Of a DNA stretch of 64,000 bases, positions 4,240 to 55,769 are shown piece by piece (position 1 is the first letter of the stretch; every line of letters begins with the position of its first letter). The DNA lies in NCBI GenBank assembly GCA_021156365.1, contig JAJNDK010000002.1:248001-312000 (forward strand), read 5' to 3'. Position numbers and translations under genes: made by a program. This stretch comes from Bacteroidota bacterium (GTDB lineage Bacteria > Bacteroidota > Bacteroidia > B-17B0 > Aurantibacillaceae). The notes below the pieces were generated by a model. That model was not told where the DNA came from. It saw only the letters and a program-made list of their open reading frames with translations, and did no database searches.

Positions 4240-5391
4240 ATGAGCGAGCCTGTTTACCTGGATTATAATGCCACTACACCCATCGACGAGCGGGTACTGG
4301 AACACATGCTGCCTTTTCTGAAAAATAATTTCGGGAATGCTGCCAGCTCCACACATCAGCATGGATGGATAGCGAAACAGGCAGTAGACGATGCACGCAG
4401 GCAGGTGGCCTCGCTGATCGGGGCCGAAGAATCAGAAATTATTTTTACTTCGGGATCCACGGAAGCGATAAATCTATCCATTAAAGGTGTTTACGAGATC
4501 TATAAGAACAAAGGCAATCATATCGTAACGGTAAAAACGGAGCACAAAGCGGTATTGGATACCTGCGAATACCTTGCGAAAAAAGGAGCGGAGATAACGT
4601 ACCTGGATGTAGATGCAGAAGGCCTCATCGATCTGCAGCAACTGGAAAGCTGTATAACTGACAAAACGATAGTAGTAGCGGTGATGTATGCCAACAATGA
4701 AACCGGCGTCATCCAACCTATTGAGGAGATCGCGCAAATAGTACATGCAAAGAACAGCATTTTCTTTTGCGATGCTACACAGGCTATTGGTAAAGCAGAT
4801 GTGGATGTACTGGAATCCGGTATTGATCTGCTCTGTTTATCTGCACATAAATTATACGGACCAAAAGGTGTTGGAGCCTTGTATGTCCGCCGGAAAAATC
4901 CGCGCGTAACGTTAAGCCCTTTGATCCATGGAGGCGGTCACGAAAAAGGCCTGCGTTCCGGAACACTGAATGTACCCGGTATTGTAGCATTGGGCAAAGC
5001 CTGCGAACTGGCAAAAAAAGAAACCTGGGATAACAATACGAACATTTCCAAACTGCGTGCTTATCTCGAACACCAGTTGCTTGATATCCCCGGCATGCGG
5101 ATCAATGGCAGCACCCGCTCCCGTTTATACAATACAAGTAATATTTGTTTCTCCGGTCTCCCGATAGCTATCGGGACTGCTGCCAAACTCATCGCTGAAT
5201 GGAGCCGTCATTTTTCGGTTGCCTCGGGTTCTGCCTGCACTTCCGCAATCCCCGAGCCTTCACACGTGCTGCAGGCAATGGGTTTGAGTGAAGCCGACAG
5301 TTATGCTTCCGTACGTTTCAGCTTCGGTAAATACAATACACAGGAAGAAACGGAGCAGGTAGTGAAGATCATTAAAGGCACTTTGTTATAA
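4240..5391 (+). CDS. Cysteine desulfurase, IscS/NifS family (copy 1)
   Basis: 383 residues, PLP-dependent class V aminotransferase fold. It removes sulfur from L-cysteine and passes it on as persulfide for iron-sulfur clusters or tRNA thiolation. The PLP lysine is Lys204 in SAHKLYGPKG, and the persulfide cysteine is Cys333 in SGSACTS. Normal family length. The stretch between ICF and the active-site cysteine contains PIAIG, encoded exactly by the palindrome at 5160-5175, and this loop is three residues longer than in the second desulfurase of this window. No iscU, iscA or suf genes are nearby. It may serve the upstream flavoenzyme only by operon position; no direct link is evident. Confidence 0.93.
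   Translation: MSEPVYLDYNATTPIDERVLEHMLPFLKNNFGNAASSTHQHGWIAKQAVDDARRQVASLIGAEESEIIFTSGSTEAINLSIKGVYEIYKNKGNHIVTVKTEHKAVLDTCEYLAKKGAEITYLDVDAEGLIDLQQLESCITDKTIVVAVMYANNETGVIQPIEEIAQIVHAKNSIFFCDATQAIGKADVDVLESGIDLLCLSAHKLYGPKGVGALYVRRKNPRVTLSPLIHGGGHEKGLRSGTLNVPGIVALGKACELAKKETWDNNTNISKLRAYLEHQLLDIPGMRINGSTRSRLYNTSNICFSGLPIAIGTAAKLIAEWSRHFSVASGSACTSAIPEPSHVLQAMGLSEADSYASVRFSFGKYNTQEETEQVVKIIKGTLL
5160..5175. repeat. 16-bp palindrome inside a coding region (copy A)
   Basis: CCCGATAGCTATCGGG, a perfect palindrome. The same core occurs at 9462-9479 and 54270-54285, both intergenic. Here it lies in frame in the cysteine desulfurase gene and encodes PIAIG just before the active-site loop. Confidence 0.9.
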
Positions 5392-8146: not shown

Positions 8147-9286
8147 TCAGGCAGTCACTTTAACTGCAAACAGCTCAGCTAATTTTTTTACAACAAAGTC
8201 GACCTCCTCTTTGGTATTGAATTTAGAGAAAGAAAAACGAACCGAAGGTCGTTCCATGTCGATACCCAAACCTTTTAGTACATGCGAGCCCTGGTTACTG
8301 CCCGATGAGCAGGCACTTCCACCGGAGGCTGCTACGCCTGCAATGTCGAGGCTGAACAATAACATTTCCGCATTCTCTGTTTTCGGGAAACAACAATTCA
8401 GTACGGTGTACAAGCTATGTGCATCATCTTCTCCGTTTATCTCTGTTCCGGGGATCAGGCTTTGGATCTGTTCACGCATATAGGTTTTTAGTCCACGGAT
8501 ATGCTTCTGGTGTTCTTCCATTTCACGAAAACAGATCTCTAATGCTTTGGAAAGGCCAACGATGCCAGCAATGTTCTCCGTTCCGCCACGCATGTTACGC
8601 TCCTGCGCACCACCATGAATGAAAGGATTTATTTTGATCGCATGATTGATATATAAAAACCCTACACCTTTCGGCCCGTGGAATTTATGTGCCGCGCAGG
8701 TCACCAGGTGCACTTTCATATCCGGCAGGTTCATGTTGTAATGTCCCATTGTTTGCACTGTATCGCTGTGGAAGATCGCATTGTGTTTTTCGCAGAGCTC
8801 TCCTACTTTTTTCACCGGCAGCAAGGTCCCGATCTCATTATTGGCATGCATCAGGGAAACGAATGAACGCTCGTTGTTTTTCAAAAGCTCTTCGAGATGC
8901 GCCAGGTCTACATTCCCTTTTTTATCGATATTTACCCAGCTCAGTTTTATCTTTCCTTCTTTTTCCATCACCTGCAGGGTATGCTCCACTGCATGATGCT
9001 CGATCCTGGAAGTGATCGCATGTTTGATATTATGTGTGGAAATGCTCTGAACGATCGCCATGTTGTCCGCCTCTGTTCCACCACTCGTAAAAAAGATCTC
9101 TGCAGGTGTTACACCTAACAACTTTGCTACATTTTTACGCGCCGTTTCAATAGCCGAGCGGGTTCTTCTTCCAAACGCATGAATGGAAGACGGATTTCCG
9201 AATTCTTCCTTGAAATACGGCAGCATAGCTTCAAATACTTCGTCGTCGAGTTTGGTAGTAGCAGCGTTGTCTAAATATACTTTCAT
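8147..9286 (-). CDS. Cysteine desulfurase, NifS/IscS family (copy 2)
   Basis: 379 residues. PLP lysine Lys201 in CAAHKFHGPKG; sulfur-carrying Cys326 in GGSACSSGS; N-terminal YLDNAATT typical of the IscS/NifS group. It has the same fold and reaction as the gene at 4240-5391 but is clearly divergent in sequence, so the two are paralogues and not a recent duplication. It is monocistronic on the minus strand, with its own -7 box at 9348-9355. The stop codon faces the end of the secreted-protein gene. No scaffold or Suf genes are adjacent. Confidence 0.93.
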   Translation of the reverse strand: MKVYLDNAATTKLDDEVFEAMLPYFKEEFGNPSSIHAFGRRTRSAIETARKNVAKLLGVTPAEIFFTSGGTEADNMAIVQSISTHNIKHAITSRIEHHAVEHTLQVMEKEGKIKLSWVNIDKKGNVDLAHLEELLKNNERSFVSLMHANNEIGTLLPVKKVGELCEKHNAIFHSDTVQTMGHYNMNLPDMKVHLVTCAAHKFHGPKGVGFLYINHAIKINPFIHGGAQERNMRGGTENIAGIVGLSKALEICFREMEEHQKHIRGLKTYMREQIQSLIPGTEINGEDDAHSLYTVLNCCFPKTENAEMLLFSLDIAGVAASGGSACSSGSNQGSHVLKGLGIDMERPSVRFSFSKFNTKEEVDFVVKKLAELFAVKVTA

Positions 9287-9461: not shown

Positions 9462-9479
9462 CCCCGATAGCTATCGGGG
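9462..9479. repeat. 18-bp palindrome, intergenic (copy B)
   Basis: CCCCGATAGCTATCGGGG, a perfect palindrome one base pair longer at each side than copy A. It lies between the starts and ends of two minus-strand genes. There is no T-tract after it, so it is not a standard terminator. Confidence 0.9.
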
Positions 9480-9593
9480 GCGGATACCGCAGATATAGAG
9501 CGATTGGTAATTAACGTAGATATGAGAAAATTTAAAGTTAAATTATCTGAGCAATCTGTGAAATCTGTGTCTGTGTTTTCCTACAGCTGTCCT

Positions 9594-53772: not shown

Positions 53773-54264
53773 ATGAAGTTAAACGAAATCCAAGACCTGA
53801 TCAAATTTGTTTCTAAATCAGGCGTTAGCGAGGTTGAACTGGAGACAAAAGAGATCAAGATTGTCATCAAAACAACTAACAAAAATTCTTCACAGATAGT
53901 GTATCAGGCAGCGCCAGTAGCAGCTCCGCAGGTAATGGCAGCTCCGCAACAGGGTGTATCAGCTCCTCAAACAACACCCGCAACACCTGAATCAAAAGCT
54001 CCTGCAGGCAACGACGAAAGCAAATACCTCATTATCAAATCCCCTATGATCGGTACCTTCTACCGTTCGGCAGGACCGGATAAACCTATGTTTGTGAATA
54101 TCGGTGATGAGATCACTTCCGGAAAAACAGTTTGTATCATCGAGGCGATGAAATTATTCAATGAGATCGAAAGCGAGATCAAAGGCAAGATCGTAAAAGT
54201 ATTGGTGAACGACGCTACTCCTGTTGAGTACGATCAGCCATTGTTTTTAGTAGATCCTTCTTAA
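53773..54264 (+). CDS. accB: Biotin carboxyl carrier protein of acetyl-CoA carboxylase
   Basis: 163 residues. Conserved N-terminus MKLNEIQDLIKFV, an Ala/Pro-rich hinge at about 45-80, and a C-terminal biotinyl domain with Lys127 in EAMKLFNEI as the biotin site. AccB carries carboxybiotin between AccC and the carboxyltransferase AccAD. accC follows after a 111-base gap containing a palindrome and a stem-loop. Confidence 0.97.
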   Translation: MKLNEIQDLIKFVSKSGVSEVELETKEIKIVIKTTNKNSSQIVYQAAPVAAPQVMAAPQQGVSAPQTTPATPESKAPAGNDESKYLIIKSPMIGTFYRSAGPDKPMFVNIGDEITSGKTVCIIEAMKLFNEIESEIKGKIVKVLVNDATPVEYDQPLFLVDPS

Positions 54265-54269
54265 TTTGT

Positions 54270-54285
54270 CCCGATAGCTATCGGG
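54270..54285. repeat. 16-bp palindrome between accB and accC (copy C)
   Basis: CCCGATAGCTATCGGG, same as copy A, five bases after the accB stop codon. Confidence 0.9.
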
Positions 54286-54332
54286 GTTGAAGATGTGTTA
54301 ATTTGATGATGAATTAATGCAGGCTTCAACCC
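54284..54332 (+). repeat. Two-stage stem-loop between accB and accC
   Basis: Outer arms GGGTTGAAG (54284-54292) and CTTCAACCC (54324-54332) enclose a second pair TTAATT (54298-54303) and AATTAA (54312-54317). It overlaps the end of palindrome copy C. It could stabilise the accB 3' end or lower accC expression. The accC ATG at 54376 is preceded by AAGGA without spacer. Confidence 0.6.
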
Positions 54333-54375: not shown

Positions 54376-55731
54376 ATGTTTAAAAAAATATTAATAGCCA
54401 ATCGTGGCGAAATTGCATTACGTGTTATTCGTACCTGCAAGGAAATGGGGATCAAAACCGTTGCGGTTTATTCCACTGCCGACAAAGAATCGCTGCATGT
54501 GAAGTTTGCAGATGAAGCAGTGTGTATCGGCCCCCCTCCAAGCAAGGACTCGTACCTGAACATGGCAAATATCATTGCGGCAGCCGAGATCACCAATGCG
54601 GATGCAATCCATCCGGGTTATGGTTTTCTTTCGGAGAATGCGAAATTCTCGAATATCTGCCGCGACCATAAAATAAAATTCATTGGCGCTTCTCCCGAAA
54701 TGATCAACCAGATGGGAGATAAAAGCAATGCCAAAGCTACCATGATCAAAGCCGGTGTGCCTTGTGTACCTGGTTCTGAGGGCTTACTGGAAAATGTAGA
54801 ACAGGCTATCCGGGAAGCAAAAGAAGTTGGATATCCTGTCATCATTAAGGCTACTGCAGGCGGTGGCGGACGTGGAATGCGGATCATCTGGAAAGAAGAA
54901 GAGCTTGCTCCCAATTTCGAATCGGCCAGCAAGGAAGCAGAAGCAGCTTTCGGTAACGGAGCGATGTATATGGAAAAATACATCGAGGAACCACGTCATA
55001 TCGAAATACAAGTAGTAGGCGACCAGTACGGAAAAGCATGCCATCTGAGCGAACGTGATTGCTCCATCCAGCGCCGTCATCAGAAATTAGTAGAAGAAAC
55101 GCCTTCTCCGTTCATGACACCTGAACTGCGTGATGCAATGGGCGAAGCTGCGATCAAAGCTGCTTTATCCATTAATTACGAAGGTGTGGGCACTGTTGAG
55201 TTCCTTGTGGATAAGCATCGTAATTTCTATTTCATGGAAATGAATACACGTATCCAGGTAGAACATCCGATCACGGAAGAAGTGATCGATTATGACCTGA
55301 TCCGTGAGCAGATCCTGGTAGCAGCTGGTGTTCCGATCTCCGGAAAAAACTATTACCCTCAATTGCATGCGATCGAATGCCGTATCAATGCGGAAAATCC
55401 CTTCATGAATTTTGTGCCTTCACCGGGCAAGATCACTACCCTGCATACACCGGGTGGCCATGGGGTACGCGTAGACAGCCATGTTTACAGCGGATACACC
55501 ATTCCACCGAACTACGACAGTATGATCGGAAAACTGATCACCGTAGCACAAACGCGTGAGGAAGCGATCGCAAAAATGCAGCGTGCCCTCAGCGAATATG
55601 TGATCGAAGGAATCAAAACAACCATTCCATTCCATTTGCGCCTGATGCAGAACGAAGATTTCAGGAAAGGAAATTATACGACCAAATTCCTGGAGACATT
55701 TGATCTGAAAGAAGATAAAAAACCCGAATAA
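54376..55731 (+). CDS. accC: Biotin carboxylase subunit of acetyl-CoA carboxylase
   Basis: 451 residues, family length. It carboxylates biotin on AccB with ATP and bicarbonate. N-terminal [20 protein letters not shown]-grasp glycine loop [24 protein letters not shown], metal-binding [15 protein letters not shown] and the C-terminal [11 protein letters not shown] are all present. A strong terminator closes the plsX-fabH-accBC cluster behind it; accA and accD are elsewhere. Confidence 0.98.
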
Positions 55732-55735
55732 AAAG

Positions 55736-55769
55736 AAAGCCCCCTGACGATCCTGTCAGGGGGCTTTTT
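55736..55769 (+). terminator. Terminator behind accC
   Basis: Thirteen-base stem AAAGCCCCCTGAC, loop GATCCT, exact complement with five T. A strong rho-independent terminator. Confidence 0.93.

Follow-up and report, generated by a model that had tools for sequence, protein, structure and literature searches.

Palindromic DNA occurring between genes, within RNA genes and as in-frame fusions in genes of conserved proteins is known from the Rickettsia palindromic elements (RPE; PMC2229807, PMC10969869). REP elements are short, high-copy hairpins with a patchy occurrence, which are mostly extragenic, with some located within open reading frames (PMC3733652). CGTC repeats were reported from Bacteroidetes (PMC3733652), and REPs are also covered in PMC6006769; the repeats that go with RAYT/TnpA-REP transposases are GTAG- or CGTC-tagged. 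MITEs have a length of 70 to 300 bp (PMC3733652). The palindrome described here, found in a 64,000-nucleotide stretch of a Bacteroidota genome (hereafter the window), is nearest in kind to RPE and REPs. Over-represented short chromosomal palindromes also include the HIP1 octamer of cyanobacteria and the parS or Noc sites. These are, to our knowledge, not known as insertions.

Like RPE and the Wolbachia palindromic repeats, the palindrome of the window is dispersed and is found between genes, in frame in conserved genes (16 of 45 copies are located in ORFs) and in RNA genes. RPE are 105 to 146 bp (about 150 bp) long, and the conserved peptide they encode has tens of residues, whereas the present unit comprises 18 bp and five residues. 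The hosts of RPE are Alphaproteobacteria, whereas here they belong to class Bacteroidia, and, unlike in RPE, both a replacement of approximately 3 bp and a symmetric target are legible. The short, high-copy and patchily distributed hairpin is shared with REPs. These are, however, 20 to 40 bp in size and carry a one-sided tetranucleotide tag, while the 18-bp unit is perfectly palindromic and untagged; moreover, it is well represented in genes and was not accompanied by a cognate Y1 gene beside its copies in most genomes examined. MITEs (RUP, Correia/NEMIS, ERIC) are likewise small non-autonomous inverted-repeat elements, but commonly have target duplications, whereas the present unit lacks both an element body and a fixed duplication and goes along with a loss of about 3 bp. 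With HIP1, parS and Noc sites the unit shares over-representation as a short palindrome, but not the length changes of +15 bp observed here. The features of the window are as follows.

4240 to 5391, plus strand: cysteine desulfurase (IscS/NifS type, Aminotran_5, class-V aminotransferase), with the insertion about 20 residues ahead of the catalytic Cys
5159 to 5176, no strand: 18-bp palindrome TCCCGATAGCTATCGGGA in the desulfurase gene, in frame, read as L-PIAIG-T
8147 to 9286, minus strand: paralogous cysteine desulfurase without the insertion, 39% identical to the desulfurase above (match at G000:C16:256180-257280, G000 being the genome of the window)
9462 to 9479, no strand: 18-bp palindrome CCCCGATAGCTATCGGGG, the C-16mer-G variant, intergenic
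53773 to 54264, plus strand: accB-like gene (biotin carboxyl carrier protein), upstream of the 54270 copy, translation read by eye
54269 to 54286, no strand: T-16mer-G copy in the accB-accC spacer
54376 to 55731, plus strand: accC-like gene (biotin carboxylase), downstream of the 54270 copy, translation read by eye
55736 to 55769, no strand: palindrome-free member (empty type) of the CCTGAC-GATC-CTGTCAGG terminator family, related to terminators elsewhere in the genome that contain the palindrome

The 16-mer CCCGATAGCTATCGGG was found three times in the window (5160-5175, 9463-9478 and 54270-54285), where an earlier note on this DNA had placed it; the third copy starts 5 bp past the end of accB, ahead of accC. 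No other occurrence with one or two mismatches was detected in the window, and none in its shuffles. The recurrence had been claimed to be far beyond chance, which is borne out by the whole genome (5.3 Mb): 83 perfect copies are present (115 with at most one mismatch), compared to 0.0002 expected from base composition, and the reversed 16-mer, used as a control pattern, was not found at all. Chance recurrence is ruled out by the shuffles, this expectation and the control, and the great excess, which the earlier note had proposed as a check, favours insertion.

As the note had read it, the copy at 5160 encodes PIAIG in frame inside the desulfurase, the closest solved-structure relatives of which are IscS proteins. 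The loop between the conserved phenylalanine and the cysteine indeed comprises 30 residues compared to 27 in the paralogue, but the excess of three residues is not the size of the insertion: it arose because the comparator was the 39% identical paralogue, and compared to orthologues the loop is five residues longer. PIAIG was absent from all homologues covering the site when more than 100 desulfurases were aligned, including the same-genus orthologue (encoded on G002:C26, 77% identical), which is 5 residues shorter. There, GGT CAG TCT TCT GCT stands in place of GGT CTC CCG ATA GCT ATC GGG ACT GCT GCC in the window, a net difference of +15 bp. The genome-wide enrichment and the PIAIG-free homologues thus support the suggestion of a short repeat inserted into a coding region. 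Spread by gene conversion, also suggested, is not supported, since no flanks are common to the copies outside the 18-mer and the edges are sharp; a gene conversion carrying its flanks along is ruled out by the unrelated surroundings of the copies.

The repeat unit is an 18-bp palindrome, usually T-CCCGATAGCTATCGGG-A, with a variable outer pair and no coding capacity of its own. The 16-mer first noted is thus real, but the full unit of 18 bp, which usually swaps out 3 bp (net +15) and is therefore neutral to the reading frame, had been missed. Counts in 2.0 Mb of G002, a genome of the same genus, were 42 for the 12-bp core, 41 for the 14-mer, 38 for the 16-mer and 36 for the 18-mer, the latter with T...A (31) or C...G (5) as the outer pair. 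With so small a drop from the core to the full unit (42 to 36), the element has sharp edges, and complementarity outside the 18 bp drops below expectation. The next commonest 16-bp palindrome in these 2.0 Mb (2 copies compared to 38) is itself a variant of the element, changed in one pair, and unrelated 16-bp palindromes, among those listed, occur once each. As a single strand, the 18-mer folds into a 7-bp stem with a 4-nt AGCT loop. Two of its reading frames are open (PIAIG and PDSYR), while the third contains TAG. Among the copies examined, 82 matched the full 18-mer, 23 had one mismatch and 27 had two or three. In G043, the arms are kept and the loops differ (AGCT, AGAT, AGCC, AGCA, AACT and others), a contrast which is partly built in because the search fixed the arms; G017 likewise has loop variants. 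Neither the 16-mer nor the 14-mer core occurred in the open literature searched, and no paper there matched a search for dispersed palindromic repeats in Flavobacterium. A second, rarer repeated hairpin, GTTGGTG-N4-CACCAAC, was present in 10 copies in the 2.0 Mb of G002 and in 3 copies in 412 kb of the genome of the window.

Two further filled and empty coding sites show the same arithmetic. In G002, the charged linker of HtpG contains PDSYR, which is absent from the orthologue of G000 (88% identical) and from other aligned relatives (net +15), and a HI0933-like protein also has a filled and an empty site differing by +15. Since coding sites tolerate multiples of three alone, non-coding empty sites were examined as well. 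For every copy, the two flanks, allowed to lie 0 to 12 bp apart, were matched against approximately 3.5 Mb (the genome of the window, G002, other genera and viral contigs). At a threshold of at least 25 of 30 matches, the gap was exactly 3 in 13 of the 35 best empty sites, many of the empty sites being paralogous repeats rather than strict orthologues; the genus pair, at 70 to 80% DNA identity, is too diverged for most intergenic comparisons. At 23 of 28, a gap of 3 was found at 17 sites compared to approximately 2.3 expected per gap class (P ~5e-10; expectation from 168 random positions, 30 of which found some match), although several of the 17 reach only 23/28, where random positions match too, so that some will be chance. 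The best single case is non-coding (L040), with flanks 28/28 identical within one locus and ATT replaced by T-16mer-A. Further clear empty sites have the triplets AAC (L393, 27/28), AAT (L412, 28/28) and ACT (L400, 27/28), the last of them with A...T as the outer pair of the copy.

Other losses were observed in few independent families: 4 bp were replaced in the CCTGAC-GATC terminators, and 5 to 6 bp (GGGTTA and relatives) in G-rich repeats of viral contigs. Judged from these alignments, replacement of 3 bp (net +15, five codons) is the main rule and the most frequent outcome, and other outcomes exist. Since 3 bp are also replaced at non-coding sites, frame preservation is built in and not selected alone; frame selection as the sole cause of the +15 is ruled out by the same sites. 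The G-rich repeat, CTCACCCCTAACCCCTCTCC...GGAGAGGGG, is found in viral contigs (L404, L405, L418, L421 and L431) in many copies; in some of these copies TAACCC is replaced by the palindrome. A useful empty site was not obtained from the phage records close to two viral contigs.

The replaced triplets, in a hand-compiled list of 19 from the empty-site comparisons, read A-N-T in 14 cases (background 10%, P 8e-11). Counted outward on the 200 sides of 100 copies, position +1 is A in 172, +2 is A in just 6 and +4 is G in 92. Taken together, the preferred target is about CNV-ANT-BNG, symmetric about its central base, a bias of the sort that a dimeric cutting enzyme would leave. A constant target duplication was not found at the copies. 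An apparent 3-bp duplication in terminator copies turned out to be an artefact of the terminator loop, and a few copies have flanking direct repeats of 5 to 10 bp, a weak and inconstant excess unsupported by the empty sites.

The 16 copies in ORFs were counted on contigs totalling 2.37 Mb, 89% of which is covered by ORFs, so that copies in genes are approximately 2.5-fold depleted, with genes far from spared. All 16 are in frame, nine as PDSYR and seven as PIAIG. Pfam-confirmed carriers are the desulfurase, HtpG, the HI0933-like flavoprotein and Thg1-like, FtsK, lysine-decarboxylase/LOG-type and OmpA-type proteins; an H1-like lysine-rich protein, identified by reading of its sequence, is also a carrier. 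One ORF of 615 residues in G002 (G002:C40:864-1374) harbors three copies in its charged tail of low complexity, all of them read as PDSYR. Terminator loops contain five of the copies examined. A tRNA gene array of the genome of the window (C1:288500-291500; L005, L016) contains three perfect palindromes inside tRNA-like sequences, and copies were found in a D-arm and a T-arm sequence beside intact-looking versions. In the same array, several genes are intact and several odd or interrupted. Dispersed intergenic repeats, GCGGATTTCGCAGAT / AATCTGCGTGAAATC, present at 9480-9570 of the window and at many other loci (e.g. L043, L053 and L047), are frequent hosts of the palindrome.

The sites in the desulfurase, HtpG and the HI0933-like protein are each filled in one of G000 and G002 and empty in the other. 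The accB-accC spacer is the sole comparable spacer with a copy in both genomes; the positions differ, and the copy in G002 has one mismatch. Since the comparable sites are not common to both and the copies are mostly identical or nearly so, the pattern is consistent with continuing activity of the element after the split, assuming neutral decay. One copy was found in G001, a draft genome of the same genus that is 66% complete. Copies were found in 18 of 60 relatives and in 30 of 395 genomes of a phylum-wide sample, every one of the latter from class Bacteroidia, with none in the other classes sampled. Within the class the spread is patchy: G017 and G011, assigned to one genus, have 83 and 0 copies, respectively. 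The copies are not an assembly artefact, because contiguous genomes (e.g. G159 and G372) have them. In viral contigs, 42 stretches with the palindrome were found. Just upstream of one such copy, a reverse-transcriptase-like sequence (L429:10162-10654) is located, with DNA approximately 66% identical to crAss-like phage genes. No master copy common to the species was found when the flanks of the loci examined were compared.

Taken as a whole, these observations show a dispersed 18-bp palindromic insertion element, most often with a net effect of +15 bp, which is likely to be inserted at staggered breaks by a trans-acting function. A trans-acting enzyme would cut CNV-ANT-BNG-like sites symmetrically with a stagger of 3 nt, three bases would be lost at the break, and the 18-mer would be put in without target duplication. 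Persistence of the element would be explained by a net length divisible by three and by peptides that may be tolerated in loops and linkers. The 18-mer itself would be either moved as DNA from donors or synthesised from an internal template; neither a donor locus nor a writing enzyme was found in the genomes and neighbourhoods examined. An ordinary transposase is disfavoured by the unit itself, 18 bp being very short for binding as two ends.

A REP-type element moved by a Y1/HUH tyrosine transposase (RAYT, TnpA-REP) is a possible, though not a probable, explanation. The hairpin with its 7-bp stem and 4-nt loop suits the REP type, and a Y1_Tnp match was detected in 13 of 14 genomes with at least five copies compared to 24 of 42 with none (Fisher P 0.02). 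However, a GTAG or CGTC tag at one end is absent and the flanks are symmetric (100 copies). The Y1 neighbourhoods examined in G000, G002, G017, G030 and G026 contain other hairpins and no copy of the palindrome; in G000, the reading frame of the single match that resembles a canonical Y1 is truncated, and the Y1-like matches of approximately 200 residues in G000 are also present in zero-copy genomes. G031, which is merely 73% complete, has 15 copies and no Y1 match. In G043, hairpins with the same CCCGAT arm adjoin two Y1 genes, and one Y1 ORF has a copy inside. With a weak association only, and copies not beside the Y1 genes in the five genomes examined, RAYT is disfavoured as the driver. The copy inside the Y1 transposase reading frame of G043 (L365:1057-1072) apparently breaks the frame. 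Y1/RAYT-like genes flanked by hairpin families of their own (e.g. GTCCC-N4-GGGAC and CCCCCGATGCACATCGGGGG) were seen at L355, L364, L367 and L361 in G002, G043 and G030, and are likely Bacteroidia REP systems.

We consider it unlikely that the palindrome is a mark of break repair, in which an internally templated polymerase extends the two ends of a staggered break by the same self-complementary tail, and the tails anneal and are sealed, so that the 18 bp replace about 3 bp with no mobile donor. This process, itself pure inference, would account for a sequence kept invariant with no donor, the perfect palindromy, the missing target duplication, the loss of about 3 (sometimes 4 to 6) bp, the symmetric target bias, the unconserved flanks and the copies in viral contigs. 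The loop variants in G017 and G043 would, however, require several templates or later mutation, and we know of no bacterial break-repair system leaving such an 18-bp palindrome.

It is very unlikely that the palindrome is the footprint left on excision by an insertion sequence whose terminal repeats are 9 bp long, TCCCGATAG...CTATCGGGA. Formally, the 18-mer equals two such ends head to head, and 3-bp staggered targets are common among insertion sequences; a normal excision footprint, however, retains target duplications and would give more than +15. In 2.4 Mb, 29 of 108 half-sites lacked an intact 12-bp core, which can be read as decayed copies or as near the chance number, and among the half-sites listed for these 2.4 Mb, none were seen to enclose a longer element as a pair. 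A non-mobile protein-binding site or terminator motif selected from point mutations, like Noc or parS sites, is highly improbable: tens of dispersed, gene-depleted palindromes of 16 to 18 bp (16/45 compared to 89% ORF coverage), five of them in terminator loops, would suit it, but not the +15 bp length change at site after site versus homologues, coding and non-coding, the copies inside tRNA-like sequences, low-complexity linkers and conserved proteins, or the fast turnover between congeners.

As an 18-bp palindromic insertion element, the 18-mer is among the smallest insertion units known to us. The +15 arithmetic explains in a simple way how conserved genes can be entered by a selfish sequence: most events are five-residue in-frame insertions, so that the element acts as a natural pentapeptide-scanning mutagen. 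The phenomenon of in-frame palindromes in Rickettsia is extended to another phylum and to viral contigs, with target and exact replacement legible, and the spread of transposase-less palindromes becomes directly testable. It is doubtful, but conceivable, that an undescribed class of minimal element is at work, in which a self-complementary 18-bp sequence is written de novo, frame-neutrally, by an enzyme that contains its own template, rather than from donors, at symmetric staggered breaks of the type CNV-ANT-BNG with 3 bp lost, and which is active across Bacteroidia and their phages. Templated addition of the 18-mer, if true, would be a new kind of process.
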